From Arthrobacter koreensis (GTDB taxonomy: Bacteria > Actinomycetota > Actinomycetes > Actinomycetales > Micrococcaceae): 64,000 nucleotides of DNA. The notes under the pieces were generated by a model. It ran no database searches, had not been told where the DNA came from, and saw only the letters and a program-made list of their open reading frames with translations. Positions 29,448-51,812 of this stretch are shown in pieces; the stretch's first letter is position 1; each line of letters starts with the position of its first letter. The DNA lies in assembly GCF_009193255.1 (NCBI RefSeq), contig NZ_WACG01000001.1:248001-312000 (forward strand), given 5' to 3'. Position numbers and translations under genes: made by a program.

Positions 29448-29501
29448 GAGATGACAGAAACTGCCCGTATCCGTCCGGATACGGGCAGTTTCTGTTATCT
29501 C
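29448..29501. repeat. Dispersed palindrome, copy 1 (terminator of metNIQ)
   Basis: Arms of 26 bases (29448-29473 and 29476-29501) pair with one mismatch around a two-base loop. The core is GACAGAAACTGCCCGT and the tip ATCCG/CGGAT. It begins 20 bases after the metQ stop. Two related copies lie at 31331-31392 and 51749-51812, so this is a repeat family that probably acts as a transcription terminator. Confidence 0.9.
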
Positions 29502-29506
29502 GGCAG

Positions 29507-29534
29507 TTCAACCTGCCCGCATCGGCGCTAGCAT
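29507..29534 (+). promoter_or_regulatory. Candidate promoter of the ABC exporter pair
   Basis: TAGCAT at 29529-29534 (four of six -10 bases) has a weak -35 TTCAAC sixteen bases upstream. It lies between the palindrome and the ABC ATPase start. Support is consensus match only. Confidence 0.3.
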
Positions 29535-29563
29535 GATGTCCATTGCCGAGTGGGAGGTGCCGC

Positions 29564-30508
29564 ATGCCGCCGGTCATAGAAACCCGCGCGCTGACCAAGC
29601 GCTACGGGTCCCGCACCGCCGTCGACTCACTGGACCTGAAGGTCCAGCCGGGATGTGTCTTCGGACTGATCGGCCCCAACGGTTCCGGCAAGACCACAAC
29701 CCTGCGGATGCTCCTGGACATCATCCGGCCGTCGTCAGGCCAGGCCCTCGTCCTGGGGACTCCTCCCCGCTCCGGCGGCCCCGCCCTGCGGCGCCGGATC
29801 GGCTACATTCCCGGAGACCTCCGGCTCAGCAGCAGGGCCCGGGGACGGACAGTGCTGGAACACTTCGCGCAGATCAGCGCACCGGTTCCTGCCGGACGCG
29901 TTGAAACACTCGCTGAGCGTCTGGGCCTGGACCTTTCCCGCCCGGTTCGGACCCTGTCCAAGGGCAACCGGCAGAAGCTCGGCCTGGTACAGGCCTTTAT
30001 GCATGACCCGGACCTGCTGGTCCTCGACGAGCCCACCAGCGGACTCGATCCGCTGGTCCAGCGCGAGTTCCTGGAAATGGTCGCCGAGGTGCGCACCTCA
30101 GGCCGCACCGTGCTGCTTAGCTCCCATGTCCTCAGCGAAATCCAACAAAGCGCTGACCAGGTTGCCGTCCTGTCGCTGGGCAAAGTGGTGGCGCAGGGGG
30201 ACGTAGCCTCACTGCGCCTCAACCGCCTGCGCCATGTCAGGGCTTCACTGGCGCCGGCCAGTGGGACGGAGAAGATGCTGGAAAATGAACTCGCCGCCGC
30301 GGGACTGCGGGGAAGCGTCACCTGGCAGGCGGGCACTGCCCGTGTCCGCGGCACGCTCGACGGCGGCGTTGATGCCTTCATCAAGGTGCTCGCCCGGCAC
30401 CGGATCCTGGACCTGTCGGTGGAAGAGCCGGACCTCGAGGAATCAGTACTGCAGCTGTACGGCGGCGCCGACGCCGCTGCCCGGGACGTGCAAAGGGGTC
30501 CGGGATGA
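29564..30508 (+). CDS. ABC transporter ATP-binding protein, ABC-2 exporter type
   Basis: The 314-residue ATPase has Walker A GPNGSGKTT (37-45), signature LSKGNRQKL, Walker B LLVLDEPTSGLDP and switch SSHVLSE. It belongs to the drug/antibiotic exporter ATPase group. ATG 29564 is preceded by GGGAGG with six bases spacing. It overlaps the permease by ATGA. No regulator gene is adjacent, so substrate and induction are unknown. Confidence 0.9.
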   Translation: MPPVIETRALTKRYGSRTAVDSLDLKVQPGCVFGLIGPNGSGKTTTLRMLLDIIRPSSGQALVLGTPPRSGGPALRRRIGYIPGDLRLSSRARGRTVLEHFAQISAPVPAGRVETLAERLGLDLSRPVRTLSKGNRQKLGLVQAFMHDPDLLVLDEPTSGLDPLVQREFLEMVAEVRTSGRTVLLSSHVLSEIQQSADQVAVLSLGKVVAQGDVASLRLNRLRHVRASLAPASGTEKMLENELAAAGLRGSVTWQAGTARVRGTLDGGVDAFIKVLARHRILDLSVEEPDLEESVLQLYGGADAAARDVQRGPG

Positions 30509-31323
30509 GCCCGCCGGCAACCCTGGCTCCAAGGCCCCTGCCCATCTTCCGCAGGACGGTCATCGACACGTGGCGCTCCACGCTCGTCTGGACCCTGGCC
30601 CTTGCTGCCGTGCTGCTGCTGTACCTGCCGCTCTACCCCTCCATGAACGGCGCCGACATGCGCAGCCTGATCAGCTCGCTGCCTCCGGAGCTTGTCAATG
30701 CCCTCGGCTACGAGGACATCCTCTCCGGACCGGGCTACGTCCAGGCCACGTTTTTCGGGCTCCTGGGGTTCGTCCTCGTCACTGCCGCTGCGGTGTCCTG
30801 GGGCAGCACGGCAATAGCTGGTGCCGAGGAATCCGGACGGCTGGAACTCGTCCTTTCCCATGGCGTCGGCCGGGTTCACTATGCGCTGGAGACAGCGCTG
30901 GGGATCCTGACCAGGCTGCTCTGGTTTGCCGTGTCGACGGCGGCGGTGGTGCTGGCCCTCAATGGCCCCTCCGAGCTCGGGCTGGACGCCGCAGACGTGG
31001 TGGCAGCGGAGGCGGCCTGGCTTGGACTGGGGTATCTGTCCGGAAGCGTTGCCATGGCAGCGGGTGCCCTCACCGGCCGCCGGACCGTGGCCCTGGGCAC
31101 CGCCGCCGCGGTAGCGGCTGCGGGGTACGTCATGAACGCGCTGGCGAACCAGAACCCGGACCTGGGCTGGCTGCGCAACCTTTCACCGTATTCCTGGGCC
31201 TACCGTAACGACCCTCTGGCGGAAGGCTTCGATGTCACCGGCCTGGGGCTGCTCGCCGCTGCCTGCGCTCTCTTCACGGCCTTGGCAGTGTGGGCTTTGA
31301 ACCGCCGGGACGTCCTGGGCTAG
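30505..31323 (+). CDS. ABC-2 type permease
   Basis: The 272-residue membrane protein has six predicted spans (first at about 22-43) and the layout of polyketide/antibiotic exporter permeases, including a hydrophilic loop LPPELVNALGYEDILSGPGY after span one. Its start overlaps the ATPase stop. It is followed by palindrome copy 2 and converges on hemL. Confidence 0.85.
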   Translation: MSPPATLAPRPLPIFRRTVIDTWRSTLVWTLALAAVLLLYLPLYPSMNGADMRSLISSLPPELVNALGYEDILSGPGYVQATFFGLLGFVLVTAAAVSWGSTAIAGAEESGRLELVLSHGVGRVHYALETALGILTRLLWFAVSTAAVVLALNGPSELGLDAADVVAAEAAWLGLGYLSGSVAMAAGALTGRRTVALGTAAAVAAAGYVMNALANQNPDLGWLRNLSPYSWAYRNDPLAEGFDVTGLGLLAAACALFTALAVWALNRRDVLG

Positions 31324-31330
31324 CCGCCCT

Positions 31331-31392
31331 CATCGAGATAGCAGAAACTGCCCGTATCAGAGCTGATACGAGCAGTTTCTGTCATCTCGATG
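31331..31392. repeat. Dispersed palindrome, copy 2 (bidirectional terminator)
   Basis: Thirty-base arms (31331-31360 and 31363-31392) with three mismatches flank a two-base centre. It shares CATCGAGAT and CAGAAACTGCCCGTAT with copy 1, but the tip is ATCAG/CTGAT. It lies between the convergent stops of the permease (31323) and hemL (31401), so it can terminate both. Confidence 0.9.
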
Positions 31393-31400
31393 GGGGGGTA

Positions 31401-32717
31401 CTACGGCTGGGCGGCCGCTGCCGCTTTCGCTGCGGCCGGCAGGGCAGCGAGAATCCGGTCCATCGCGGCGTCGTCGTGCGCGCCGGAGAGGAACCAGGCC
31501 TCGAAGACGGACGGCGGCAGGTAGATCCCGGAATCCAGCATCGAGTGGAAGAACGGCTTGAAGCGGAACGCCTCCTGGGCCAGTGCGTCCGCGTAGTCGT
31601 GCACCCCGTGCTCCGCCGTGCCGAAGGCGATGCTGAAGAGGTTCCCGGCGCGCTGGACGGTGTGGTTCACGCCTTCTGCGGAGAGTGCCTCGGAGACAGC
31701 CTGGGACAGCTGCGCGGAGCGGGCGTCAATGTTCGCGTAGACCTCAGGCGTCGCAGCGGTGAGCGTGGCGACGCCGGCCGCCATGGCGATCGGGTTTCCG
31801 GAGAGTGTACCTGCCTGGTAGACCGGACCCAGCGGGGCCAGGTATTCCATGACGTCCGCGCGGCCGCCGAGGGCTGCCACGGGCATGCCGCCGCCAATGA
31901 CCTTGCCGAAGGTGTAAAGGTCCGGCGCCCAGCCTTCCTTCTCCCCCGTCAGTCCCCAGTAACCAGCCGGCGAGGTGCGGAAACCGGTGAGGACTTCATC
32001 CAGGATGAGCAGCGCGCCGTGGGAGGTGGTGATGCGGGACAGTGCGGCGTTGAAGCCCTCCGCCGGGGTGACCACGCCCATGTTGGCAGGCGCTGCTTCC
32101 GTGATGACTGCGGCAATATTCGCGCCGTGCTCGGCGAAGGCGGCCTCTACGGCAGCGACGTCGTTGTACGGCAGCACCAGGGTTTCCGCGGCCGTCGCTG
32201 CCGTGACGCCGGCAGAACCGGGAAGGGCCAGCGTGGCTACTCCGGACCCGGCGGAGGCCAGCAGTCCGTCGAGGTGTCCGTGGTAGCAGCCGGCGAACTT
32301 GATGACCAGGTTGCGGCCGGTGAAGCCGCGGGCCAGGCGGACTGCAGTCATGGTGGCTTCGGTGCCGGTGGAGACCATACGCAGCCGCTCGACGGGCTTC
32401 ACACGGTCCATCACCAGGGCTGCAAGTTCGGCCTCAGCCGGCGTGGACGCTCCGAAGGAGAGCCCGCGGTCGACGGCTGAGTGCACCGCTGCCAGGACGT
32501 CCGGGTGTGAGTGGCCCACCAGGGCCGGACCCCAGGAGCAGACCAGGTCCACGTATTCGCGGCCTTCGGAGTCGGTAACGTACGGTCCCTTAGCGGACAC
32601 CAGGAAGCGCGGGGTACCGCCAACGGAGCCGAATGCCCGCACGGGTGAGTTCACGCCGCCGGGCATCAGGGCACGGGCGCGGTCGAAGAGCTCTTCAGAG
32701 GAGACAGTCTGGGTCAT
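31401..32717 (-). CDS. hemL: Glutamate-1-semialdehyde 2,1-aminomutase
   Basis: The 438-residue PLP enzyme converts glutamate-1-semialdehyde to 5-aminolevulinate, the second step of the C5 pathway. The PLP lysine sits in [17 protein letters not shown] (about residue 270), and the N-terminus [12 protein letters not shown] is typical. It is the last gene of the heme operon; its start overlaps the hemB stop by one base (TAATG). Confidence 0.97.
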
Positions 32718-33700
32718 TACTTGCTTTCCTTCAGCCAGGCGGCCAGCTCGGCGGCCCAGTACGTGAGAATGATGTTGGCGCCGGCACGCTTGATGCCGAG
32801 GACGGATTCTTCGATGGCGCGGCGGCGGTCGATCCAGCCGTTCGCAGCCGCAGCTTCGATCATCGCGTATTCACCGGAGATCTGGTAAGCCGCTACCGGA
32901 ACCGGGGACATCGCGGCCACGTCGGCAAGGATGTCCAGGTAGCTCATGGCCGGCTTGACCATGACCATGTCGGCGCCTTCTTCGAGGTCCAGCTCCACTT
33001 CCAAAAGGGCCTCGCGACGGTTGGCGGCGTCCATCTGGTAGGTGCGGCGGTCGCCCTTGAGCTGCGAGTCCACTGCTTCGCGGAACGGGCCGTAGAACGC
33101 TGACGCGTATTTCGCGGCGTAGGCAATCACGGAGACGTCCTGGAACCCGGCTTCATCGAGGGCCTGCCGGATCACGGCAACCTGGCCGTCCATCATTCCG
33201 GAGGGGCCCAGTACGTGGGCCCCGGCACGCGCCTGTTCAACGGCCATCCGGCCGTAGATCTCAAGGGTTGTGTCATTGTCCACGACGCCGTTCGCATCCA
33301 GCACGCCGCAGTGGCCGTGGTCGGTGAACTCATCGAGGCAGACGTCGCTCATGATCACCAGGTCGTCTCCGACCTCGGCGCGCACATCCGCAATGGCCTT
33401 GTTCAGCACGCCGTCCGGATCCGTACCGGCGCTGCCTGCGGCGTCGCGTTCTGCCGGAATGCCGAAGAGCATGATGCCGCCGACGCCGAGTTCCACCGCC
33501 TCAGCGGCAGCGCGCTTCAGGGTGTCGGTGGTGTGCTGCAGGACGCCGGGCATCGAGGTGATGGGGTTCGGCTCGGACAGGCCTTCGCGGATGAAGGCCG
33601 GAAGCACGAGCTCGGCAGGGTCCAGGCGGTATTCGGCGGTCATCCGCCGCATGGCCGGTGTGGTCCGCAGCCGGCGGGGGCGGTGCTGGGGGAAGCTCAT
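32717..33700 (-). CDS. hemB: Delta-aminolevulinic acid dehydratase (porphobilinogen synthase)
   Basis: The 327-residue enzyme condenses two 5-aminolevulinates. Both active-site lysines are seen ([12 protein letters not shown] and [10 protein letters not shown]). In the metal site, the four-Cys zinc motif of animal and E. coli types reads [14 protein letters not shown], with Asp in place of the second Cys, suggesting a Mg2+-dependent or mixed type. Four-base overlap with hemD upstream. Confidence 0.96.
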
Positions 33701-34644
33701 GGCTGTTCTCTGCCTTCCGGGTCAGGGTGTTGAAAATTCTGGGCGGCACGTGCCGCTTCGACGGCGTCGGCTATGCCGGCGGGGGTGGGATGCTTTGCCG
33801 TGGCTGCCGCTGGATGTCCCAGGTGTGCCAGTTCGGCAGCCGTGGGGTCCCCGATGGCGACGAGCAGCGCGGTTCCATCCGGCCCGGCGTCACGGACAAA
33901 CCGCCTCGCGGTGCTCGGGGAGGTGACGACGACGGCGTGGTTTCGGGCCGCTTCAGCGCCTCCTCGTGCCGCAGTCCAGGCGCGGTAGTCCGCGGGGCTC
34001 AGCACTTCCGCTCCGGGCGCTCCGGGCGCGCCTGTCCGCGGCATGATCCGCTGCTCCTCGGGTGCCGGGTAGTCCACGGTTTCATAGGCAGGCACGGCAA
34101 CAACGTCCCAGCCGGCGGCGGACAGGGACGTCCGCAGGAAAGGATTGGCGATATCTGCCTGCGGCAGGAAAATGCGGTTCCGCCCAGGTCCCGGAGCGGG
34201 CCAAAGCGCAGCCAGACCGCGGGCAGACTGGTCCCCGGAGGGAAGCAGGTCCGGAACGATGCCCGCACTTTTCAGCGCCCGGGCCGTGCCTAAACCAACC
34301 GCAGCCACGCGGGTGCCGCGGCAGAGCACGGCCAATGCGCTCCCGGCAGCTTCGGCTGCACGGAGGGCCTGGACAGTAGTTGCGGAAGTAACGATGATCC
34401 AGTCGAACTCCCCCTGTCCGAGGCCGCGCAGGCCCTCGGACACCGGTCCGGTGTCCGAGGGCCGCTGGAAATCGATCAGTGGCATCAGCCGCACGGAGGC
34501 ACCGCGGGAGCGCAGTTCCCCTGCCATGGGTCCGGCACGGTCCGGGGAACGCAGCAGGACAACCTCCGCGCCGGCCAGGCTCTCCGCCGGGCGGGGTCCG
34601 GGTCCGGCTGCGGACGGCGTGTCCATACCGCTGTCTCCGGTCAT
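33697..34644 (-). CDS. hemD: Uroporphyrinogen-III synthase
   Basis: The 315-residue protein has the two-lobed HemD fold ([22 protein letters not shown] start; [27 protein letters not shown] near the C-terminus). It closes hydroxymethylbilane with ring-D inversion. The open frame continues upstream into hemC, but ATG 34644, with GGAG nine bases before it, is the likely start. It lies 19 bases after hemC and overlaps hemB by ATGA. Confidence 0.9.
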
Positions 34645-34663
34645 GCGTACGGTCTCCGGCTGC

Positions 34664-35617
34664 TTAGGACGCCAGGTTGGTGAGGTCCGCGGCGCCTGCT
34701 GCGAGGAGCTCTTCGGCCATCCGGATACCCAGGGCCCGTGCGCCGTCCTCATCGGCCTGTGACGTGGACGAGTACCGGCGGAGCACCTGCGTGCCGTCGT
34801 CACTGCAGACTACGGCTTCGAGCGCGAGGCCCTGATCGGTGACCCGTGCCAGCGCACCGATAGGGGCGGTGCAGCCGGCTTCGAGGCGCTGCAGGAGGGA
34901 CCGTTCAGCCGTCACGGCCATCCGGCTGGCCGAGTCGTCATAGGCAGCCAGTGCCCGGCTCAGCGGCCCTTCGGCGGCGTCCGCGGTGCGGCACTCAACG
35001 GCCAGTGCGCCCTGCCCCGGTGCCGGCAGCATGACTGACGGGTCCAGGAACTCGGACACCATGTCCAGGCGCCCCAGGCGGCTGAGTCCGGCGGCTGCCA
35101 GCACGACGGCGTCGAGGTCACCGGGTGCGCCCTCCACCAGCCCGGCTACGCGGCCCAGGCGTGTGTCCACATTGCCGCGGATGTCAATGATTTCCAGGTC
35201 CGGTCGGGCAGCCCGCAGCTGTGCTGCACGGCGCGGCGAGCCGGTGCCGATCTTCGAGCCTGCAGGCAGTTCCGCCAGCGTCAGGGAATCCCGTGCGCAG
35301 AGTGCATCGCGCACGTCCACACGTGACGGAATGGCCCCGATGATGAGTCCGTCGGCCTCGGCGGTGGGCAGGTCCTTCAGCGAATGCACGGCGACGTCGC
35401 AGTCCCCGGCGAGCAGGGATTCCCGCAGCGCCGCCACGAAGACACCGGTGCCACCAATCTGGGACAGGGCAGCCCGGTTCACGTCGCCTTCGGTCCGGAC
35501 ACGGACCAGGTCAACGTCGAAGCCGCCCAGGTCTGCCAGCGTGTTAGCCACCGTGGTGGTCTGCGTGACGGCCAGGGCGGACCCGCGGGTGCCAATCAGC
35601 ACCGGGGAGTGCGCCAC
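34664..35617 (-). CDS. hemC: Porphobilinogen deaminase (hydroxymethylbilane synthase)
   Basis: The 317-residue enzyme polymerises four porphobilinogens. Cys in LQRLEAGCTAPIGA (about 248) carries the dipyrromethane cofactor, and the N-terminus IGTRGSALAVTQT is diagnostic. The GTG start overlaps the cpfC stop by one base (TAGTG), so it is coupled to the upstream gene. Confidence 0.96.
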   Translation of the reverse strand: MAHSPVLIGTRGSALAVTQTTTVANTLADLGGFDVDLVRVRTEGDVNRAALSQIGGTGVFVAALRESLLAGDCDVAVHSLKDLPTAEADGLIIGAIPSRVDVRDALCARDSLTLAELPAGSKIGTGSPRRAAQLRAARPDLEIIDIRGNVDTRLGRVAGLVEGAPGDLDAVVLAAAGLSRLGRLDMVSEFLDPSVMLPAPGQGALAVECRTADAAEGPLSRALAAYDDSASRMAVTAERSLLQRLEAGCTAPIGALARVTDQGLALEAVVCSDDGTQVLRRYSSTSQADEDGARALGIRMAEELLAAGAADLTNLAS

Positions 35618-36807
35618 TACTGCCTTCCCACCGTCGAGTCAACGCCGGCGATGGTCGGCTTTTCGCCGCGCAGGTTGGCGCAGCAGCCGGGACGGCAAAC
35701 GTCGTACCACGGGCCGAGGTTCGTCAGCGCAGGGCGGTCGGCGATGTTGTTTTCAACGGTGCGCTCACAGATCAGGTCCACGATGCCGGCAACGAACTTC
35801 TCGTGGATGCCCGGTGTCGGTGCGCGGTGTGCCGCCAGTCCAAGCTCGGAGCAGGTCTCCATGGCCTCGGTGTCCAGGTCCCAGATGACTTCCATGTGGT
35901 CGCTGACGAAGCCCAGCGGCACAATGACGACGCCTTCTACGCCCTTGGCGGGCAGCTCGTCGATGGCGTCATTGATGTCCGGTTCGAGCCACGGCGTGTG
36001 CGGGGAGCCGGACCGGGACTGGTAGACCAGCTGCCAGTCCAGGCCGGCGGCTTCCGGGATGCGGTCCATGATGGCACGGCAGTTTGCCAGGTGCTGGGCA
36101 ACGTAGGCGCTGCCTTCTTCGAACTCGACGTCGCGCGGGCCGGCGGCCTCGGCGTCGGCGGTGGGGATGGAGTGCGTGGAGAACAGGATTTCGATTTTCC
36201 CGTTGTCCTTGCCTGCTGCGGCAAGCTGTTCGCGTACCTTGGCCAGGGAATCCCGCACGCCTTCGACGAAGGGCTCCACGAAACCGGGGTGGTCGAAGTA
36301 CTGGCGGACCTTGTCCACCCGCAGCGTCTTGTCCAGCCCGGTCTCGACCAGGTTGATACCCAGGTCTTCGCGGTACTGGCGGCAGGAGGAATAGCAGGAG
36401 TACACGCTGGTGGTGACCATGAGCAGCCGGCGGTAACCGGCGTCGTGGGCTTCCTGCAGCACGTCCTTGATGTAGGGGGCCCAGTTGCGGTTGCCCCAGA
36501 GAACCGGGAGCTGGATTCCGCGGCGGTCCAGCTCGCCTTCCAGCGCAGCCTTCAGCGCGCGGTTCTGCTCGTTGATGGGGCTGATGCCGCCGTTGGCCCG
36601 GTAGTGGGTAGCCACTTCCTCAAGGCGCTCGTCGGGGATGCCGCGGCCGCGGGTGACGTTGCGCAGGAACGGAATAACGTCTTCCTGGCCTTCCGGTCCG
36701 CCAAAGGAGGCGAGCAGGATAGCGTCGTATTCGGCCGGGGCCATGACACCGTCCTCGCTGACGCCTTCCAGGGGATCAAAGCCTGCGGGGGTTGAAAGGG
36801 AAGTCAT
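35617..36807 (-). CDS. cpfC: Coproporphyrin III ferrochelatase
   Basis: The 396-residue ferrochelatase inserts Fe2+ into coproporphyrin III in the Gram-positive heme route (older name hemH). Motifs ILLASFGGPEGQEDV, FSTHSIP and WLEPDIND are present. The C-terminal VCRPGCC with an upstream Cys pair (CYSSC) could hold the [2Fe-2S] cluster known for actinobacterial ferrochelatases. ATG 36807 overlaps the chdC stop (ATGA); the longer frame runs back into chdC. Confidence 0.94.
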   Translation of the reverse strand: MTSLSTPAGFDPLEGVSEDGVMAPAEYDAILLASFGGPEGQEDVIPFLRNVTRGRGIPDERLEEVATHYRANGGISPINEQNRALKAALEGELDRRGIQLPVLWGNRNWAPYIKDVLQEAHDAGYRRLLMVTTSVYSCYSSCRQYREDLGINLVETGLDKTLRVDKVRQYFDHPGFVEPFVEGVRDSLAKVREQLAAAGKDNGKIEILFSTHSIPTADAEAAGPRDVEFEEGSAYVAQHLANCRAIMDRIPEAAGLDWQLVYQSRSGSPHTPWLEPDINDAIDELPAKGVEGVVIVPLGFVSDHMEVIWDLDTEAMETCSELGLAAHRAPTPGIHEKFVAGIVDLICERTVENNIADRPALTNLGPWYDVCRPGCCANLRGEKPTIAGVDSTVGRQ

Positions 36808-37508
36808 CGAAGCACCTCGGTTACTTCGGCGGCGGAGATGCGCCGGCCGGTGTAGAAGGGAATTTCCTCGCGCACGTGGTTGCGCGCTTCGGTGGACCGC
36901 AGGTGGCGCATCATGTCCACCAGGTCCACCAGGTTCGGGGCTTCCAGCCCCAGGATCCACTCCCAGTCGTTCAGGGCGAAGGAAGCGACGGTGTTCGCCA
37001 GGACCTGCGGGAAGTCCCGGCCCAGCATGCCGTGGTCACGCAGCATGGCGCCGCGTTCTTCGGCCGGCAGCAGGTACCACTCGTAGGAGCGGACAAACGG
37101 GTAGACGCAGATCCAGGCTTCGGGGTCGATGCCGCGGGCGAAGGACGGCCAGTGGTTCTTGGAGAACTCGGCGTCGCGGTGGACGCCCATGGCAGACCAG
37201 GCGATCTCCGTGCCTGCGAACAGTTCGGAGCGCCGGACCTTGCGAAGCGCTGCCTGCAGCGCCTCGGCCTGGCCGCCGTGCAGCCAGATCATGATGTCTG
37301 CGTCGGCACGCATGCCGGAAACATCGTAGATTCCGCGGAGGGTGACGTTCTCGGCAGCAAAGCTGCCTACGAGTTCCTCGAAAGCGCCCAGGGCGCCGTC
37401 GCTGGTTTCACGCGGAAGGTCTGACCGCTTGAAAACGGTCCAAAGTGTGAAGAACTGTTCTTGTGTTTCGACTTCGGCTGATGCGTTCTGACCCATGGAC
37501 TCACTCAT
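36804..37508 (-). CDS. chdC: Coproheme decarboxylase
   Basis: The 234-residue chlorite dismutase-fold enzyme (HemQ/ChdC) oxidatively decarboxylates coproheme to heme b, the last step of the coproporphyrin pathway. MIWLHGGQAEAL and PFVRSYEWYLLP (with the catalytic Tyr region) are visible. It is directly upstream of the ferrochelatase, so its substrate is made by the next gene. A palindrome lies 46 bases upstream of its start. Confidence 0.94.
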   Translation of the reverse strand: MSESMGQNASAEVETQEQFFTLWTVFKRSDLPRETSDGALGAFEELVGSFAAENVTLRGIYDVSGMRADADIMIWLHGGQAEALQAALRKVRRSELFAGTEIAWSAMGVHRDAEFSKNHWPSFARGIDPEAWICVYPFVRSYEWYLLPAEERGAMLRDHGMLGRDFPQVLANTVASFALNDWEWILGLEAPNLVDLVDMMRHLRSTEARNHVREEIPFYTGRRISAAEVTEVLR

Positions 37509-37553
37509 GACTTACAGTCTGCCGGTTTGGACAGGCTTAGGCGAATAAGGAAC

Positions 37554-37570: not shown

Positions 37571-37575
37571 CATTT

Positions 37576-39048: not shown

Positions 39049-39050
39049 GG

Positions 39051-43564: not shown

Positions 43565-43609
43565 AGTAGATTCATCCCCACTGAGTTCACATAAACAGGA
43601 GGCACCACG

Positions 43610-43834: not shown

Positions 43835-43840
43835 CTCGTC

Positions 43841-44143
43841 ATGGGCGAAGTGCTGCTTGCTGCCGCCGCACTGGCGGCAGCAGGTTTCATCGTCCGGGGC
43901 GCGGACCCGCGCCGAAGTACCTACGGCGTCCTCCTGCTGCCCGGGATTTCCCTCGCAGCAGGACTCAGCATCTGGATCATCCTGCAGTTCACGCCGGTGG
44001 TAACCAGCGCTGGATTCTCCTGGCTCTCCTGGGCGGTTACCGTCCTCACAGGCCCTGCCGCTGCCGTTGCAGCGGCGCTGGCCACAGTCTCCCGGCGACT
44101 GCCGCGGGACAACGCTGAACGCGAGCGCATCCTCAAGCTTTAG
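43841..44143 (+). CDS. Small two-span membrane protein
   Basis: The 100-residue protein has two or three hydrophobic spans (about 4-20, 30-46 and 58-80) and a charged C-terminus ending RERILKL. It starts six bases after the DUF3107 stop without a good ribosome site, so it may depend on coupling. I recognise no family. Codon usage looks like its neighbours, which supports a real gene. Confidence 0.65.
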   Translation: MGEVLLAAAALAAAGFIVRGADPRRSTYGVLLLPGISLAAGLSIWIILQFTPVVTSAGFSWLSWAVTVLTGPAAAVAAALATVSRRLPRDNAERERILKL

Positions 44144-44147
44144 GGCG

Positions 44148-45212
44148 CTAGCCCCGGTCCAGGACCGCCTTCAGCTCCCGCGCGAAAACGGGAGTGGCGG
44201 CGTCGTGCCCCGCCTTGCCCAAGTGCAGGCCGTCGTCCAGTTTCGACCCCAGGGAGTAGCGCTTCCACCAGTCCTTGGGGCTGAGGAAATCAAGTCCCTG
44301 TTCGGCAGCGACGCCGGCCAGGAGATCGTCGATCTCCGCCCGGCGCCCCTTGCCGTCTCCAATGACGCCAACCATGACTATCCGGGTTTCCGGATACGTG
44401 CGTTTGAGTTCCCGGATCAGCTGCACGGCGTTGTGCCGGATGTCCGCGTTGCGCGGACCGTAGGCATCGTTGCCGCCGCCCTGGAGCACCACCAGCGCGG
44501 GTTTGCCCCACGGCAGCAGCCACTCCTCTGCTTCCAGGGCCTCCGGATAGTTATGCACCTCGCCGTTGCCCCTGGTGTAGCCGGTTCCCCCGGCCCCCAG
44601 GACCAGCGGGTTGAACCCCAGCGAGGCCAGGCCCCTGCCCACCCAGGTGTCACGGCCTGCCTGAGAGTCTCCGATCACCACTGCCGCGCTTCCTACCGCG
44701 GGGTCGTAGGACATGATCCTTCCCAGCCGCGGGGAGTACATCAGCGTGCCCTTCTGGAAGTCGGTCCTCCGGTCTCCGCCGAAGGTGTATTCGGACGTCA
44801 CCGGCCAGCCGAGGGCCCGGATCGAGGACTTCCACCGATCAAAGACTTCCGTGCGCAGGGCACGCAGGCCGGTCTGCGCACTCCACACCAGGGTTTCCGC
44901 TCCATAGGAGAAATAGCAGCCGGAGCCGGGCAGGGTACAGACCGGAGCCTCAGACGGTTCGGTCAGCGGACGGCCGCTGTCCGCGCGGGCCTGCTCGAAT
45001 TCCCCCAGGGCATCCCAGGCGGCAGCCGGAACTCCCTGCGGCGGCGGGGGCTGGAGGGGAAGGCCGGCGCCCGTTGAAGGCGGCGCCGGGGCCGGCGCCG
45101 CCGGCAGCGGCTGCTGCGCCGGAAGCGCCCCGCAGGCCGATACAACCGCCACGGCAGCTGCTGCCGCCGCACAGAGCATCCGGCGCCTCACAGCGCTGGA
45201 CGTCGAACCCAT
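44148..45212 (-). CDS. SGNH/GDSL-type hydrolase lipoprotein
   Basis: The 354-residue precursor has a lipoprotein signal (lipobox VSAC), a Pro/Ala-rich linker, then an SGNH fold. Block I is VVIGDSQAGRD with the catalytic Ser, block III QGGGNDAYGP, and block V DGLHLGKAGHD with Asp and His. It is probably a surface-anchored esterase or deacetylase; the substrate (cell-wall glycan or polysaccharide O-acetyl groups) is a guess. Confidence 0.88.
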   Translation of the reverse strand: MGSTSSAVRRRMLCAAAAAAVAVVSACGALPAQQPLPAAPAPAPPSTGAGLPLQPPPPQGVPAAAWDALGEFEQARADSGRPLTEPSEAPVCTLPGSGCYFSYGAETLVWSAQTGLRALRTEVFDRWKSSIRALGWPVTSEYTFGGDRRTDFQKGTLMYSPRLGRIMSYDPAVGSAAVVIGDSQAGRDTWVGRGLASLGFNPLVLGAGGTGYTRGNGEVHNYPEALEAEEWLLPWGKPALVVLQGGGNDAYGPRNADIRHNAVQLIRELKRTYPETRIVMVGVIGDGKGRRAEIDDLLAGVAAEQGLDFLSPKDWWKRYSLGSKLDDGLHLGKAGHDAATPVFARELKAVLDRG

Positions 45213-45327
45213 ACTGCTCCCCCACCGAATCTCTGCTGGACCGTCGAATGTATCCGGTACCGCTTCAACGCTACAGGCGTAAGAGGCCGGCTGCAGGATC
45301 CGGCGCCGCGCCCGGCCCCCGGCGTGC

Positions 45328-46041
45328 CTAGGCGGTGAGCCCCAGGAGGGACATCCGCCGTGAATGGTTGCGGGTCAGCTGGCTGAAGAGATCCCGGATC
45401 TGCGCGTCGAGCTCCTCACGGCTGAGGAACCCGTCCAGCTCCGCCGGCATTGCACGTTCGATCACCACGCGCTGGGCCTGGGTCAGGGCCTCGCCCACCA
45501 GCCGGCGTCCCCAGAGTGCCAGCCGCGAGGCCAGCCTCGGATCGTCCTTCAAGGACTCCTGCAGACGCACAAAAAGGACCTCCCCTGCCGCTTCGCTGCC
45601 GGTCTCCTGCAGGGAGGCGATCAGCGCCGAGCTATCCGGATCGAGCAGGGACCCGAGCGCGGCGTAGAAGTCGTCTGAAATCGCATCAGTGACATAGAAC
45701 TTCATCAGGGACTCGTACCAGTCCCCCGGGCGGGTTCGGTCATGGAAGGCATCCACCGACTGCTGGAAGGGGGCCATGGCGTCCTCGGCGTTAAGGCCCA
45801 TCGACTCAAGGTGCGCGGCCACCCGCTCGAAGTTCTCGTATTCGCGCACCGCCAGCCGTCCCAGCGCGGCACGGTCCCGGAGACTCGGCGAGAAGCGTGC
45901 GTCCGATGACATCCGCTCAAAGGCGGACAGTTCGCCATAGGCGATGACACCGAGCAGGTCCGAAAGGAACTGCCGGTATGCGTCCGCCGCACCGGGGTCC
46001 GTTGCGTGCCCTGTAGCCGAAGCTGCGTTGTTCTCACTCAT
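45328..46041 (-). CDS. Ferritin-like fold protein (Rv3210c-like)
   Basis: The 237-residue helical protein has Glu/His pairs typical of ferritin-like di-iron proteins (YGELSAFERM; REYENFERVAAH), similar to the MiaE-like group. Activity is not established. ATG 46041 was chosen since residues before it in the open frame are basic and unstructured. It is divergent from the DEAD-box helicase gene; the same neighbour order exists in mycobacteria as I recall. Confidence 0.82.
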   Translation of the reverse strand: MSENNAASATGHATDPGAADAYRQFLSDLLGVIAYGELSAFERMSSDARFSPSLRDRAALGRLAVREYENFERVAAHLESMGLNAEDAMAPFQQSVDAFHDRTRPGDWYESLMKFYVTDAISDDFYAALGSLLDPDSSALIASLQETGSEAAGEVLFVRLQESLKDDPRLASRLALWGRRLVGEALTQAQRVVIERAMPAELDGFLSREELDAQIRDLFSQLTRNHSRRMSLLGLTA

Positions 46042-46472
46042 ACGCCCAGCGTACCGGTGTGTCCGGGCTCTCAGCGGACTGGCCAGCTGCCGTTGCGGCT
46101 CCGTTCCCCGCGGCTGTACCCGCCACCGGGCGCCAGCCAACTCGCTGGATAGGCCAATGCGGCCCGCGGCGGCTGCACCGGGTAGACTGGGATGGTAGTA
46201 AATGGATGCCCGGTCGTTCCCACGTTCCTGAAACCCTTCATGAATTGCCGGTTGGAGACACTATCCAGCCGGCTGTGAGACCCGCAGTACCTACGCGAAC
46301 TTGATATTTTCCGGCCGCTGCCTTTGCCGAATGCAGTTGGAGTGGCCAGCAGTCCTTAGCCCGCGATCGGCTTCCGCTGGACGCATCACCTGCGCGCCAT
46401 CCGCTCCGGGATGGGCCCTATGCCCTCTCGTCGAGCGCGGTACCGCAGAATGCCTAACTGAACGGTATGTAA
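46042..46472 (+). other. 431-base non-coding leader before rhlE
   Basis: No protein gene is seen. TAGACT at 46190-46195 could be a -10. The stretch includes a strong RNA hairpin (46247-46273) and a smaller one (CCATCC/GGATGG, 46397-46414). Such a long structured leader before a DEAD-box helicase suggests a regulated 5' UTR. Confidence 0.45.
46247..46273 (+). promoter_or_regulatory. Hairpin in the rhlE leader
   Basis: GCCGGTTGGA pairs with TCCAGCCGGC across a seven-base loop; the only non-Watson-Crick pair is a G:U in RNA. That wobble makes it more likely to be an RNA than a DNA element. Confidence 0.5.
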
Positions 46473-48131
46473 TTGAACACTGAACTTTCCCAGGTCAGCG
46501 ATGCGCAGCTGACCGCAGATGACAGCAACGAAGAACTGGAAGTCACCGAGACCCTCGCCACAACGGAAGCCGCAGCTGAAATCCCCGAACTCACGTTCGC
46601 TGATTTCGGTGTCCGCGCCGAGATCGTGGATTCACTCGCGGAAGCCGGCATCACACACCCCTTCCCCATCCAGTCCATGACCCTGCCGGTGGCACTCGGC
46701 GGCCACGACATCATTGGCCAGGCCAAGACCGGTACCGGAAAGACCCTCGGCTTCGGCATCCCTGCCCTGCAGCGCGTGATTGTCCCGGCGGACGACGAGT
46801 ATGAGTCGCTTCCCGCTCCGGGCGCACCGCAGGCCCTGATCGTCGTCCCTACCCGTGAACTCGCGGTCCAGGTAGCCAGCGACCTGACGACGGCGGCGCG
46901 CCGCCGCGGCGCGCGCATCGTTACCATCTACGGCGGCCGTGCCTACGAACCGCAGATCGAGGCCCTCGAAGCCGGCGTGGAAATCGTCGTCGGCACCCCC
47001 GGGCGCCTGATCGACCTTCACAACCGCCGCCAGCTTTCCCTCAAGAACGTCCGCATCGTCGTGCTCGACGAAGCCGACGAAATGCTGGACCTCGGCTTCC
47101 TGCCCGACGTCGAAACCCTGATGGCAGCCACCCCGGCAGCCCGCCAGACGCTGCTCTTCTCCGCGACCATGCCCGGCCCTGTCGTCGCCATGGCACGCCG
47201 CTACATGACCAAGCCGACGCACATCCGCGCCGCCGACCCCGAAGACGAGGGCCTGACCAAGAAGGACATCCGCCAGGTTGTCTACCGGGCGCACAACCTG
47301 GACAAGAGCGAAGTCGTGGCCCGCATCCTGCAGGCCCGCGGACGCGGCCGCACCATCATCTTCACCAAGACCAAGCGCACCGCTGCCAAGCTGTCCGAGG
47401 AACTCGTGGACCGCGGCTTCGCTGCCGCAGCAATCCACGGCGACCTGGGCCAGGGCGCCCGTGAGCAGGCCATGCGAGCCTTCCGCAACGAGAAGGTCGA
47501 CGTCCTCGTAGCCACCGACGTCGCCGCCCGCGGCATCGACGTCGACGACGTCACGCACGTCATCAACTACCAGTGCCCCGAAGACGAGAAGACCTACCTG
47601 CACCGCGTTGGCCGTACCGGCCGTGCGGGCAACAAGGGTACCGCCGTCACGTTTGTGGACTGGGACGATGTCCCGCGCTGGGGCCTCATCAACAAGGCGC
47701 TGGGCATGGACCAGGCCGAACCGCTTGAGACCTACTCCTCTTCACCGCACCTGTACACGGACCTCGACATCCCCGAAGGAACCAAGGGACGGCTGCCCCG
47801 CAACAAGCGCGTGCTGGCCGGTATCGACGCTGAAAAGCTCGAGGACCTGGGCGAGACCGGCAAGTCCGGCGGACGCCGCGCACCCCGCTCCGACTCGGGC
47901 CAGCGCTCCGGCGGCCGCAGCTCCGACCGCGGAGGGCGCGGATCCGGTGCCGGAGGCCGCAGCTCCCGGGAAGGGTCCCGCGAAGGCGCCCGCCGCAGCC
48001 CTGAGAAGGCCGCCGAGGCACCTGCCCCCGCGTCCGGCGAGAGTGCCAAGGCCGACCGCCCCCGCCGTAACCGCAGCCGTACCCGCCGCCGCAACGGTGA
48101 GGTAGTCAGCAAGGCCCCCGCCGCCGAATAG
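46473..48131 (+). CDS. rhlE: DEAD-box RNA helicase
   Basis: The 552-residue protein has the complete motif set: Q motif (FGVRAEI...PFPIQ), AKTGTGKT, PTRELA, DEAD (VVLDEADEMLD), SAT, and HRVGRTGRAG. The C-terminus (about 450-552) is a basic Arg/Gly/Ser-rich tail that binds RNA. A stop codon lies directly upstream in frame, so the TTG at 46473 is the first possible start; no strong ribosome site is visible. It likely acts in ribosome assembly or RNA decay. Confidence 0.92.
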   Translation: MNTELSQVSDAQLTADDSNEELEVTETLATTEAAAEIPELTFADFGVRAEIVDSLAEAGITHPFPIQSMTLPVALGGHDIIGQAKTGTGKTLGFGIPALQRVIVPADDEYESLPAPGAPQALIVVPTRELAVQVASDLTTAARRRGARIVTIYGGRAYEPQIEALEAGVEIVVGTPGRLIDLHNRRQLSLKNVRIVVLDEADEMLDLGFLPDVETLMAATPAARQTLLFSATMPGPVVAMARRYMTKPTHIRAADPEDEGLTKKDIRQVVYRAHNLDKSEVVARILQARGRGRTIIFTKTKRTAAKLSEELVDRGFAAAAIHGDLGQGAREQAMRAFRNEKVDVLVATDVAARGIDVDDVTHVINYQCPEDEKTYLHRVGRTGRAGNKGTAVTFVDWDDVPRWGLINKALGMDQAEPLETYSSSPHLYTDLDIPEGTKGRLPRNKRVLAGIDAEKLEDLGETGKSGGRRAPRSDSGQRSGGRSSDRGGRGSGAGGRSSREGSREGARRSPEKAAEAPAPASGESAKADRPRRNRSRTRRRNGEVVSKAPAAE

Positions 48132-48152
48132 GCCGGGATCCCCTCCATACGG

Positions 48153-49139
48153 ATGAGCACACCTAACTGGACGCCGGACGGCGGGTCACTGATAGTCCAC
48201 GCAGACAATGCGGATTATCTGCCGACCCTGCCGGACGGCTCCTTTACCCTGATCTACGTCGACCCTCCGTTCAATACCGGGCGTGCACAGCGCCGGCAGC
48301 AGACCACCATGGTCCGAAGCACCGAGGGCACCGGCGACCGGACGGGGTTCAAGGGCCGCAGCTACACCACGGTCAAGGGACTGCTCTCCAGCTACGACGA
48401 CGCGTTCGAGGACTACTGGGCGTTCCTTGAACCCCGGATGGCAGAGGCGTGGCGTCTCCTGGCAGACGACGGCACCCTGTACGTGCACCTTGACTACCGC
48501 GAGGTGCACTACGTGAAGGTGATGCTGGACGCCCTCTTCGGGAGGGACTGCTTCCTGAACGAGATTATCTGGGCCTACGACTACGGCGGACGGGCCAAGA
48601 ACCGCTGGCCTGCCAAGCATGACAACATCCTGGTCTACGTAAAGAACCCCGTTGCCTACCACTTCGACAACGCCGAGGTGGACCGGGAGCCGTACATGGC
48701 GCCGGGACTGGTGACACCGGAGAAAGTGGCGCTTGGCAAGCTGCCCACCGATGTCTGGTGGCACACCATCGTTTCCCCCACGGGGAAGGAAAAGACCGGT
48801 TACCCCACACAGAAACCGGAAGGCCTGCTGCGCCGTGCCGTAGCCGCTTCCAGCCGCGAGGGCGACTGGGTGCTGGACTTCTTCGCCGGCTCTGGAACCC
48901 TGGGCGCAGTGGCCGGGAAGCTCGGCCGCCGCTTCGTGTGCGTGGACGCCAATCCGCAGGCAATCGAGGTCATGGAGCGCCGGCTGGGGCATACCGCCCA
49001 GGTACTGGTGCCCGCCAAGCCCAAACGCGTACGGACCCGGCGAACCGCTCCCCCGCGAACCGCCGCGCCGAAGACTGCGTCTCCCCCGGCCCCGCCCGCA
49101 GGGTCCGTGGACCCGGGGCAGACGCCCGCGGCGCTTTAG
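48153..49139 (+). CDS. Orphan DNA adenine/cytosine-N4 methyltransferase
   Basis: The 328-residue enzyme has motif IV VDPPFNTG (about 36-43) before motif I FFAGSGTLG (about 245-253), the beta-class order. DPPF points to N6-adenine or N4-cytosine methylation. The C-terminal 50 residues are a Pro/Ala/Lys-rich tail. No restriction endonuclease gene is next to it, so it is probably solitary and regulatory or epigenetic. It follows rhlE by 21 bases. Confidence 0.88.
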   Translation: MSTPNWTPDGGSLIVHADNADYLPTLPDGSFTLIYVDPPFNTGRAQRRQQTTMVRSTEGTGDRTGFKGRSYTTVKGLLSSYDDAFEDYWAFLEPRMAEAWRLLADDGTLYVHLDYREVHYVKVMLDALFGRDCFLNEIIWAYDYGGRAKNRWPAKHDNILVYVKNPVAYHFDNAEVDREPYMAPGLVTPEKVALGKLPTDVWWHTIVSPTGKEKTGYPTQKPEGLLRRAVAASSREGDWVLDFFAGSGTLGAVAGKLGRRFVCVDANPQAIEVMERRLGHTAQVLVPAKPKRVRTRRTAPPRTAAPKTASPPAPPAGSVDPGQTPAAL

Positions 49140-49163
49140 CCAGCCGGTACCGGATGGCTAAAG

Positions 49164-49211
49164 CCGGACGGTCATGGCCGGACGGTCATGGCCGGACGGT
49201 CATGGCCGGAC
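49164..49211. repeat. Tandem 14-base repeat at the end of the PHP gene
   Basis: CCGGACGGTCATGG is repeated three times and followed by six more bases of the unit (49164-49211). It lies between the methyltransferase stop and the convergent PHP gene and covers the PHP stop codon (49200-49202). The unit is not a multiple of three. Confidence 0.9.
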
Positions 49212-50048
49212 AACCGGCGTGCCGGTACCGACTTCGGCGATACGCTCCAGGACCTCGGCACTGGTGGTGTTCTCCCCCAGCAGGTTCGGTTTGCCGGTTC
49301 CGTGATAGTCGCTGGAACCGGTCACCAGCAGCGAATGCTCCGCGGCCAGCCGGCGCAGGTACGTACGGCCGTCCTCCGGGTTGTCCCGGTGCTCAATCTC
49401 CAGGCCGGCCAGCCCGGCGTCGATCATTTCCAGGTAGGTCTGTTCGCCCACCACGCGTCCGCGGGCGGATGCCTCCGGGTGGGCGAAAACGGGCACCCCG
49501 CCGGCGTCGCGGATCAGGCGCACCGCGTGCGCGGGATCCGGGGCGTAATGCGCCACGAAGTAGCGGGAACGTCCGGTCAGGATCCCGGCAAATGCAGCCG
49601 ACCGCGATGGAACCACACCGGCGGCAACCAGCGCGTCGGCGATGTGCGGCCGGCCTATGGTGGCCCCTGGTGCAACCTGCTCCTGCACGTCAGCCCAGCT
49701 GATGGGATAGTCCTCGGCAAGGCGTTCCACCATGCGTTCGGCCCGGCTCACCCGGGCCGAACGGGACTTGGCGATCTCCGCCAGCAACCCGGGATGGGCC
49801 GGGTCATGGAGGTAGGACAGCACATGCACGCTGATGCCGTTATCGGTGCGGCAGGAAACTTCCATGCCCGGTACAAACGTGAGGCCCAGGGCGCGGGCCG
49901 CTTCGGCTGCCTCACCCCACCCGGCAGTGGAGTCGTGGTCCGTCAGCGCCACGGCGTCCAGCCCGGCGGCCGCTGCGGACGCCATGACAGCTCCTGGGGC
50001 TTCAGTGCCGTCGGAGACGTTGGAGTGGGTATGCAGGTCGATTCTCAC
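49200..50048 (-). CDS. PHP-domain phosphoesterase
   Basis: The 282-residue protein has the PHP metal-site motifs MRIDLHTHSNVSDG at the N-terminus, ALTDHDST, and a GMEVS strand, resembling the YciV/RNase AM group that trims RNA 5' ends or hydrolyses 3',5'-nucleoside bisphosphates. The last codons lie inside a tandem repeat. It is divergent from the aminopeptidase P gene. Confidence 0.88.
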   Translation of the reverse strand: MRIDLHTHSNVSDGTEAPGAVMASAAAAGLDAVALTDHDSTAGWGEAAEAARALGLTFVPGMEVSCRTDNGISVHVLSYLHDPAHPGLLAEIAKSRSARVSRAERMVERLAEDYPISWADVQEQVAPGATIGRPHIADALVAAGVVPSRSAAFAGILTGRSRYFVAHYAPDPAHAVRLIRDAGGVPVFAHPEASARGRVVGEQTYLEMIDAGLAGLEIEHRDNPEDGRTYLRRLAAEHSLLVTGSSDYHGTGKPNLLGENTTSAEVLERIAEVGTGTPVVRP

Positions 50049-50148
50049 CCCTCCAATCTACGTGGTTCCCCGCGCCGATCCGGCGCTGGCGCTCCGCAGC
50101 CGCCGGGGGATGTTTGGCCCTGTTAACTGCCGGTGAGAGCATAGACGG

Positions 50149-51741
50149 GTGAGTACTGAAGCCAATTCAATGAACCCCGCCGATTCCGGCCTTGAGGAAC
50201 TGTCCGAGGGGCAGCCGCTTGAGGACCGGGTGAACAACCGTTCCCAGCGCCCCACGTCGCAGGCGTTCAAGGACTTTATGTCATCCGGCTGGGCCTCTGC
50301 GTCCGATGAACTCCCGGAACAGTCCGCGGTGGCTCCGCACGCTGCCGCCCGCCGCCGGGCGCTCTCCGAGCGTTTCACGTCTGAACGCCTGGTCATTCCG
50401 GCCGGCCCGCTGAAGGTCCGTTCCAATGACACCGATTACCGGTTCCGCCCCCACTCCGGGTTCGCCCACCTCACCGGCCTCGGTCTGGACCATGAGCCGG
50501 ACGCGGTCCTGGTCATGGAACCCGTGGAAGAGGGAACCGGCGACGACGGCGGCCACCACACTGCCACGCTTTACTTCCGTCCGCTCGCCGGCACCGACAG
50601 CGAGGAGTTCTACTCCAACGCCCGCTACGGTGCGTTCTGGATAGGTTCCCGCCTGAACCTGGAACAGGTCAGCGCCCTGGTCGGGCTGCGGACACGGGAC
50701 CTCTCCGAGGCCGAAACCGCTATCACGTCCAACGTGGGCGACCCGCAGTTCGGTGGCATCTCCGTCCGCCTGCTGCGCAAGGTTGATGAGATGGTTGACG
50801 CCCTGGTGGACACCGTCCGCTACAACACGGCAATGGACCCGGACAACATGGACTTCAGCGCCCTGGACGCCAAGGATGAAGAACTCACCGAGGCACTCTC
50901 TGAGCTGCGCCTGGTGAAGGATGCCTGGGAAATCGAGCAGATGAAGGAAGCCGTGGCGGCCACCGTCAACGGATTCACGGAAGTCGTGAAGATCCTCCCC
51001 CGCGCCATCAGCCACCCCCGCGGTGAGCGCGTGGTCGAAGGCGCCTTCTTCGCCCGTGCCCGCGAAGAGGGCAACGACCTGGGTTATGACACCATCGCCG
51101 CGGCAGGCAACAACGCCACCGTGCTGCACTGGATCCGCAACAACGGCGAGGTCAAGGCCGGGGATCTGCTCCTGCTGGACGCCGGCGTGGAAGCTGACAG
51201 CCTCTACACTGCCGACATCACCCGCACGCTGCCGGTCAACGGCACCTTTTCCGAGGTCCAGCGCCGCGTGTACCAGGCAGTGCTCGACGCCGCAGACGCC
51301 GGCTTCGCGGCCGCCAAGCCGGGCAACAAGTTCCGCGACGTGCACGCCGCAGCCGTCCGTGTCCTGGCAGAGCGCCTGCAGGACTGGGGGCTCCTGCCGG
51401 TTCCGCTGGAAGAAGCCCTCTCCGACAACGGCCAGCAGCACCGCCGCTGGATGCCGCACGGCACCAGCCACCACCTGGGCCTGGACGTACACGACTGCGC
51501 GCAGGCCCGCCGCGACCTCTACCTGGACGGCATTATCGAAGAAGGCATGGTCTTCACGATCGAGCCGGGCCTCTACTTCAAGGAAGAGGACCTCACCATC
51601 CCGGAGGAGTACCGCGGGATCGGCGTGCGGATCGAGGACGATGTCCTGATCACGGCCGACGGCGCCGAAAACCTCAGCGCTGCACTGCCGCGTGATCCCT
51701 CCGACGTCGAGGACTGGATGGCGGGAATCTACGCCTCCTAG
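50149..51741 (+). CDS. pepP: Xaa-Pro aminopeptidase (M24B)
   Basis: The 530-residue aminopeptidase P removes N-terminal residues before proline. The metal ligands of the pita-bread fold are seen: Asp in LLLDAGVEAD and TADITRT, His in HGTSHHLGLDVHD, Glu in FTIEPGLYF, and Glu in GVRIEDDVL. An N-terminal creatinase-like domain fills the first 240 residues, with a long charged extension before it. GTG 50149 has no clear ribosome site and may be leaderless; the ATG at 50170 (residue 8) is an alternative start. Confidence 0.92.
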   Translation: MSTEANSMNPADSGLEELSEGQPLEDRVNNRSQRPTSQAFKDFMSSGWASASDELPEQSAVAPHAAARRRALSERFTSERLVIPAGPLKVRSNDTDYRFRPHSGFAHLTGLGLDHEPDAVLVMEPVEEGTGDDGGHHTATLYFRPLAGTDSEEFYSNARYGAFWIGSRLNLEQVSALVGLRTRDLSEAETAITSNVGDPQFGGISVRLLRKVDEMVDALVDTVRYNTAMDPDNMDFSALDAKDEELTEALSELRLVKDAWEIEQMKEAVAATVNGFTEVVKILPRAISHPRGERVVEGAFFARAREEGNDLGYDTIAAAGNNATVLHWIRNNGEVKAGDLLLLDAGVEADSLYTADITRTLPVNGTFSEVQRRVYQAVLDAADAGFAAAKPGNKFRDVHAAAVRVLAERLQDWGLLPVPLEEALSDNGQQHRRWMPHGTSHHLGLDVHDCAQARRDLYLDGIIEEGMVFTIEPGLYFKEEDLTIPEEYRGIGVRIEDDVLITADGAENLSAALPRDPSDVEDWMAGIYAS

Positions 51742-51748
51742 CCTCCCC

Positions 51749-51812
51749 CATCGAGATGACAGAAACTGCCCGTTTGGAGCTCCAAACGGGCAGTTTCTGT
51801 ATGTTCGGGATG
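51749..51812. repeat. Dispersed palindrome, copy 3 (terminator)
   Basis: The same CATCGAGATGACAGAAACTG core as copy 1 is followed by perfect 21-base arms (51759-51779 and 51780-51800) with tip TTTGGAGCTCCAAA. The outer right arm has diverged. It begins eight bases after the pepP stop and ends before the stop of the convergent stress-protein gene. Confidence 0.9.

Follow-up and report, generated by a model that had tools for sequence, protein, structure and literature searches.

A family of gene-end palindromes in Arthrobacter koreensis, likely bidirectional terminators, with arms that probably change together

Three palindromes in the window and their genome-wide family

The DNA analysed here is a 64,000-nucleotide stretch of the Arthrobacter koreensis genome (the window; positions 248001–312000 of contig C5 in genome G000, which comprises 3.55 Mb in 15 contigs), and its subject is a family of palindromes of about 62 bp that lie at gene ends. 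The window contains three copies, built on arms of the sequence CGAGATGR-CAGAAACTGC-NCG (type 1) around a tip that differs from copy to copy. The copies and the genes that adjoin them are arranged as follows.

28607..29428, + strand: NlpA-type lipoprotein (Pfam Lipoprotein_9), 5′ of copy 1
29444..29505, no strand: palindrome copy 1, type-1 arms CATCGAGATGA-CAGAAACTGC-CCG, tip TATCCG-TC-CGGATA
29579..30508, + strand: ABC transporter ATPase, 3′ of copy 1
30505..31323, + strand: ABC-2 family membrane protein, 5′ of copy 2
31331..31392, no strand: palindrome copy 2, type-1 arms, tip TATCAG-AG-CTGATA, convergent genes on either side
31401..32717, − strand: class-III aminotransferase, converging on copy 2
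50170..51741, + strand: M24 peptidase with aminopeptidase P N-terminal domain, 5′ of copy 3
51749..51810, no strand: palindrome copy 3, type-1 inner arms, tip TTTGGAG-CTCCAAA, mixed outer arms
51826..52767, − strand: YflT-domain protein, converging on copy 3

The aminotransferase and peptidase genes are presumably hemL and pepP, respectively; the aminotransferase protein is 79–83% identical to the named Arthrobacter proteins that top the matches listed.

The first-pass annotation of this DNA had described all three palindromes, whose ends are redrawn here as the 62-nt units given above. It had placed them 7–20 bases past plus-strand stop codons, in agreement with stops ending at 29428, 31323 and 51741 and palindromes that start 15, 7 and 7 nt on, and the convergent setting that it gave for copies 2 and 3 is confirmed, copy 1 lying between co-directional genes. 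Its description of an arm followed by its own reverse complement fails for copy 3, in which the left outer arm is CGAGATGACAG and the right outer arm is CTGTATGTTCG; the TATGTTCG stretch on the right is not the complement of GAGATGA, and pairing breaks there, a mismatch that turned out to be informative. The differing tips are paired as described, save for the two central bases in copies 1 and 2. The stem of copy 2 contains two unpaired positions (A·C in the outer arm and C·A in CTGCCCG/CGAGCAG) and one G·U pair, and that of copy 1 contains one G·U pair and unpaired outermost bases. The annotation had also proposed a genome-wide family, which a search of the core in this genome and its relatives, with counts and positions relative to stop codons, bears out with far more than three copies: 55 in G000, with none for the reversed-pattern control.

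Stable GC-rich RNA hairpins are predicted for all three copies on both strands, with energies of −49.9 (+ strand) and −45.6 (− strand) kcal/mol for copy 1, −40.9 and −44.0 kcal/mol for copy 2, and −39.9 and −37.3 kcal/mol for copy 3. Palindromes of such quality (26-bp arms with at least 20 pairs) are absent from five mononucleotide shuffles of the window, and at the Rfam gathering score the window yields a single tRNA and no match for the palindromes. In four relatives (G006, G004, G014 and G001) the orthologue of copy 1 has a tip longer by one to three bases.

The family search used the pattern CAGAAACTGCNCG-N14-CGNGCAGTTTCTG with at most three mismatches. The core was found in 12 of 29 genomes of the genus, with 55 (own genome), 53, 46, 38, 17 and 6 copies followed by counts of 1–2, and in 13 of 245 genomes of the Micrococcaceae; three of these belong to two other genera, where the 1, 1 and 5 matches all deviate from the core at two or three positions. 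When a covariance model built from 52 copies was run against 149 genomes of this bacterial family, 38 of them, representing 18 of 32 genera, gave matches at E ≤0.001, and G003 (33) and G002 (22) gave many. These figures differ from copy numbers, as at most 35 candidates were scored per genome and both strands were counted. Among the matches from other genera (L259, L261–L265 and others, across the 18 of 32) are palindromes of 61–66 bp with a similar mid-arm motif, which are candidate homologues.

The 52 copies are aligned without gaps across 64 columns (alignment A1). The alignment comprises 50 of the 55 counted copies together with L216, which fits the pattern, and L234, which has four mismatches, and thus leaves out 4 of the 55. 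Of 57 loose matches, five were judged to be due to chance and excluded, as was an odd-length copy at L233. Among 187 distinct palindromes the span from CAG to CTG is 40 nt in 176, 41 nt in 8, and 42, 43 and 45 nt in one each, those of 42 and 45 nt (L182 and L185) being ordinary terminators of other species; because most search patterns prescribe the length, these spans overstate its constancy, and copy 1 has the longer orthologues noted above. The copies are spread unevenly over G000, with 36 of the 52 on contig C5 (1.45 Mb) and 2 on contig C6 (647 kb).

Position at gene ends

Gene orientation around the 52 copies was obtained with a simple codon-usage gene caller and compared with that at the 53 gene junctions of the window. 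Convergent, co-directional and divergent settings account for 26, 22 and 4 copies, respectively, compared with 11, 31 and 11 junctions (Fisher p = 0.002 for the convergent excess and 0.09 for divergent junctions, with the three copies of the window counted in each set). At least one gene 3′ end faces 48 of the 52 copies, and the facing stop codons lie at a median distance of 13 nt.

The same sites in species that lack the family are occupied by other hairpins. At the copy-3 site, compared in 29 genomes, the family is found in G000, G006, G004 and G014, and all 25 other genomes carry an ordinary GC hairpin, often with A- and T-tracts. At the copy-2 site the family is found in six of the 29 (G000, G006, G004, G014, G001 and G012); of the 23 family-free genomes, 21 carry an ordinary GC hairpin, accompanied in nearly every case by A- and T-tracts, and G005 and G011 have another inverted repeat. 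The copy-1 site was compared in eight genomes: the family occupies it in five, and an ordinary terminator in the other three (G012, G005 and G011). The simplest reading of this site comparison is that the palindrome fulfils the role of the terminator, and because family-free species carry ordinary GC hairpins at the same sites, the palindromes are most likely bidirectional transcription terminators. Within the palindrome, a GCCCGT..ACGGGC stem followed by AGUUUCUGU, mirrored on the opposite strand, would resemble a small two-way intrinsic terminator inside a larger stem. C makes up 46% of the 30-nt left flank and G 42% of the right one, compared with 33% further out; beyond this bias the flanks show no copy-specific complementarity to each other.

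Joint change of the two arms

In alignment A1, 92.8% of 1,456 cells are paired, compared with 86.1% in shuffles. Both-sided changes are found in 13 of the 28 pairs (9.0 in shuffles) and in 100 cells, compared with 41 in column shuffles and 4–23 when the structure is slid along the alignment; 11 pairs are invariant and hence uninformative. Orthologues of the G000 copies were identified through both flanks. Changes on both arms number 15 in G006 (3.2 expected if the arms were independent), 37 in G004 (7.8), 7 in G014 (1.3), 20 in G001 (6.4) and 40 in G003 (18.5), under an independence null that disregards rate differences between sites and with two type-switched sites in the G004 set. Changes on a single arm number 84, 107, 29, 50 and 16 in the same five genomes.

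At some sites of relatives the type-1 arm is replaced by a second type, CGAGAGGC-CAGTTACGGC-TC, in an unchanged frame of about 62 bp. The pattern TACGGCTC-N16-GAGCCGTA, with at most two mismatches, has 30 matches in G000 (reversed control 3), 32 in G001, 24 in G004, 17 in G006 and 23 in G014; reversed controls range from 1 to 6, and the remaining 24 genomes have 0–4 matches. Among 249 typed palindromes, both arms are of type 1 in 158, of a one-base variant of type 1 in 33 and of type 2 in 50 (three of the latter with a one-base variant). Palindromes with one type-1 and one type-2 arm number 0 of the 249, though the search patterns demand similar arms.

The 52 loci of G000 could be mapped to orthologous sites in G006 (37), G004 (38), G014 (12) and G001 (22). 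At least one of these four relatives has an orthologous palindrome at 43 of the 52 loci, 7 are unmapped in all four, and 2 are mapped solely to palindrome-free sites. At 11 loci, two arms of type 1 (or of its one-base variant) in G000 correspond to two arms of type 2 in a relative; that relative is G004 at five loci and G001 at eight, with two loci in both, giving 13 comparisons. These include 84 changes from one Watson–Crick pair to another, 76 of which have no possible route through G–U. The flanks at the switched sites are 78–91% identical, and up to 10 pairs are changed at one site. At L229 eight pairs differ, all by transversions, and the palindrome starts 6 nt past the stop codon in one species and 8 nt past it in the other. 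At L211 the homologous flank extends to the edge of the palindrome; the two species compared at L044 agree in the outer 14 bp and in the tip core and differ in the middle of both arms. Because G004 and the outgroup G001 both have type 2 at L215 and L033, type 1 is likely to be the derived state there, given the tree ((G000,G006),(G004,G014)),G001, which was built from two genes. Type-2 regions were fetched for being type 2 (20 in G001 and 19 in G004), so the number of switched sites is not a rate; type-2 loci of G000 were left unsampled except for L240, which was met by chance.

The mixed outer arms of copy 3 can be followed through four species. G014 has arms that are alike (CGAACATACAG..CTGTATGTTCG), as does G004 (CGAGATGACAG..CTGTCATCTCG, the consensus), and in G000 and G006 a consensus left arm faces a right arm of the TATGTTCG kind. 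The CGAACATACAG arm of G014, which is of the TATGTTCG type, occurs at no other locus examined. On the tree ((G000,G006),(G004,G014)), the simplest history is that of a mixed ancestor resolved from left to right in G004 and from right to left in G014, each time with four bases changed in one step; separate replacements of the left arm are less parsimonious, as they need more steps. The copy-3 site itself, found in one clade, is likely to be a newly gained one.

Copies within one genome also resemble each other across loci. Twelve copies of the more distant G003 have common arm letters (CCGCGAGATGGCAGAAAGTGCnCTTCCCAGC) that are unlike those of G000 at several positions on both arms. At the four sites that are orthologous between G003 and G000 the palindromes are 62.1% identical, compared with 81.0% among non-orthologous G000 copies and 80.0% among G003 copies, and this is no higher than the 66.2% of the average G000–G003 pair. 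In closer species orthologues are 86–95% identical and non-orthologues 78–80%, as would be expected if copying is slower than those splits. The copies of G003 were detected using a model based on those of G000, which introduces a bias opposite to that of the search patterns.

Explanations for the joint change of the arms

We regard as probable the explanation that these palindromes, which likely serve as bidirectional terminators, have their two arms rewritten jointly, by copying of one arm from the other as template and by gene conversion between loci. The transcript would form a hairpin of about 27 pairs; a polymerase stalled in the palindrome could copy one arm from the other, bringing pairing back in a single multi-base step; a palindrome elsewhere could serve as donor, so that the copies of one genome would converge on their own arm types; and selection on hairpin function would weed out copies that no longer pair. 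Termination, template copying and gene conversion are the mechanisms that we infer from the pattern of sequence change. Gene conversion, one of two origins that the first-pass annotation had suggested, is well supported by whole-arm type switches at orthologous sites and by copies that are more alike within a species than are the orthologues of a distant species, compared at four sites; its terminator assignment is favoured by position and by the ordinary hairpins of family-free species, and remains a putative one based on sequence.

Several points weigh against this explanation. Eight of the 249 typed palindromes combine the two type-1 variants, which differ by one base; the search patterns require the same type on both arms and would have missed most copies mixed between types 1 and 2; and in L039 of G006 the left arm alone carries a GGCTC stretch reminiscent of type 2. 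The G000–G003 comparison has four sites, and the patterns inflate similarity within a genome. Type 1 was the selection criterion for the G000 loci, and the counts give neither the direction nor the rate of switching. The history of copy 3 is a reading by parsimony, and conversion would have to act across arms of about 25 bp. The only U-rich stretch is TTTCTG, which is short and located inside the palindrome after the inner stem with no tract past the full stem, and termination, though likely, is deduced from sequence. At unswitched sites 15 of 41 compensated changes cannot go through G–U, a share not far above the 21% of pair switches reported for Bacillus cereus terminators (79% being AU–GC; PMC5381666), and much of the ordinary drift in the palindromes may therefore be stepwise. 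It is the type switches, rather than ordinary drift, that are striking.

Stepwise change, in which ordinary terminators under selection for pairing acquire a single substitution and then one in its partner, with no copying, is an unlikely account of the whole. Compensatory evolution of terminators is established in Bacillus cereus (PMC5381666), single-arm changes are numerous in all four close comparisons, G–U pairs are present, and 26 of the 41 compensated changes at unswitched sites could have gone through them. The type switches are harder to obtain in this way: their 76 of 84 changes that lack a G–U route stand against the 79% AU–GC switches of Bacillus cereus, up to 10 pairs change at a single site with flanks 84–91% identical, and the change lands on an arm type that is present elsewhere in the same genomes. 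The absence of palindromes mixed between types 1 and 2 argues in the same direction, though the patterns disfavour such copies, and pairing selection leaves unexplained one arm sequence common to many loci.

A mobile palindromic element, of at least two types and similar to miniature inverted-repeat transposable elements (MITEs) or repetitive extragenic palindromes (REPs), that inserted independently at terminators would account for the many copies, for a copy-3 site gained within a four-species clade in place of the ordinary hairpins of 25 of 25 other genomes, and for three palindrome-free sites in G006. The first-pass annotation had raised mobility as its other origin. It is decidedly unlikely, given direct repeats in the flanks of the 52 copies that average 1.29 nt compared with 1.33 nt in shuffled flanks, with a target duplication of at least 5 nt in 0 of 52. 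The domain Y1_Tnp (PF01797), typical of REP-associated tyrosine transposases (RAYTs), was found in 0 of 29 genomes, other transposase families not having been searched, and in 5 of 14 control genomes. Most copies have an orthologous palindrome in relatives (the 43 of 52 above), and type-switched copies lie at matching positions, as at L211 and L044. The 25 family-free genomes at the copy-3 site have that site occupied by another hairpin, and the three palindrome-free sites in G006 have altered flanks. Copy 2 has no match among plasmid or phage collections; the 2-kb region of copies 1 and 2 has one 52-base match, to an ABC gene stretch in one plasmid.

Four copies on contig C5 of G000 were considered as recent insertions and rejected. 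The copy at 277455 (copy 1) is common to four relatives, with the longer tip; those at 118930 and 706831 correspond to type-2 palindromes in G004, and that at 382539 to a decayed palindrome in G011, these three being absent from G006.

Sites for a symmetric DNA-binding protein, with a preference that drifts by lineage and is followed by all sites of a genome, would explain the mid-arm letters conserved across loci, the near-constant length and the symmetry. We consider this operator-like role very improbable: the sites come after genes, with only 4 of 52 between divergent genes, two main arm types are found in one genome, the tips co-vary in keeping with pairing that a protein would not need, and ordinary hairpin terminators occupy the same place in family-free species. 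A further reading, unlikely though less so and put forward only tentatively, is that the palindromes are a novel type of spreading DNA, a symmetric hairpin without a transposase that overwrites other terminators and other palindromes in place, using an arm as template, such that all the terminators of a genome would be switched, one site after another, to a new ‘allele’ with gene order and termination kept.

The joint-rewriting explanation draws on processes that are each known, and their combination appears to be new; no title or abstract found in the open-access literature describes such a palindrome family or the en-bloc switching of terminator arms. Stem-loops prefer convergent intergenic regions in all bacteria surveyed (PMC1590033). 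Like bidirectional intrinsic terminators, the palindromes form GC-rich hairpins soon after stop codons, prefer convergent settings, carry complementary A-rich and U-rich stretches flanking the inner stem and occupy the sites of relatives' terminators, but they differ in their length of about 62 bp, in the short U-tract inside the stem, in an arm sequence common to dozens of loci and in two exchangeable types. The copying of one inverted-repeat arm from the other by template switching has been documented (PMC8794818; PMC8604942), and its homogenization of quasipalindromes resembles the multi-base changes on both arms seen in copy 3 of four species and in the type switches; those papers concern RNA genes and yeast coding regions, whereas in the present case the process seemingly acts on dispersed bacterial terminators, in combination with exchange between loci. 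As in Bacillus cereus (PMC5381666), stem pairs switch between Watson–Crick pairs, but a route through G–U, matching the 79% AU–GC switches there, is available for 8 of 84 changes at type switches here, with many pairs changing on both arms at once; for unswitched sites (26 of 41) the contrast is small.

The family is also dispersed, extragenic and palindromic, with tens of copies near gene ends, as are REPs and the hairpin-forming REP doublets (REPINs) associated with RAYTs. It is longer than REPs (20–40 bp; PMC3733652), symmetric, without a noticed one-ended tag and without a Y1 transposase in any of the 29 genomes. A further likeness comes from insertion sequences, which are reported to insert into REP palindromes (PMC1525189), in that two family copies seemingly hold one at the apex. 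At L232:1270–1335 (G000:C11) and L218:360–450 (G000:C8), half-palindromes consisting of right arms only directly follow similar insertion-sequence-like ends, and the left halves were not found; it seems that the insertion sequence entered the apex of two family palindromes. Upstream of the half-palindrome at L232 lies a transposase with HTH_38 and rve domains, which we take to be IS30-like.

Template switching has been put forward to explain how long stems stay almost perfectly paired as their sequence evolves, a question that is not yet settled (PMC8794818). One genome here provides about 80 natural replicates of one hairpin, and orthologues in related species catch arm switches; therefore the relative contributions of stepwise compensation, copying between arms and exchange among loci become measurable. 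The results suggest that bacterial terminators can evolve in concert, as repeated genes do, and that covariation needs care as proof of selection on RNA structure, as copying alone can yield it.

Other palindromes were seen alongside the family. At L021:1442–1493 (G000:C5 near 750370), a second long palindrome adjoins a family palindrome and is centred on the outer edge of the latter (CATCGAGATG), as if produced by one template switch starting there. Another clade of the genus has a different, recurrent palindrome of about 52 bp (GTTTGTCCGG..CCGACAAAC-like) in the vicinity of the peptidase gene (L187–L191 and L197, from G009, G010, G017 and G019–G021). Two further long, near-perfect palindromes without the family core are located at convergent gene ends in the window (3350–3389 and 18363–18411), the latter of which has ATGACAG in common with the family arm.

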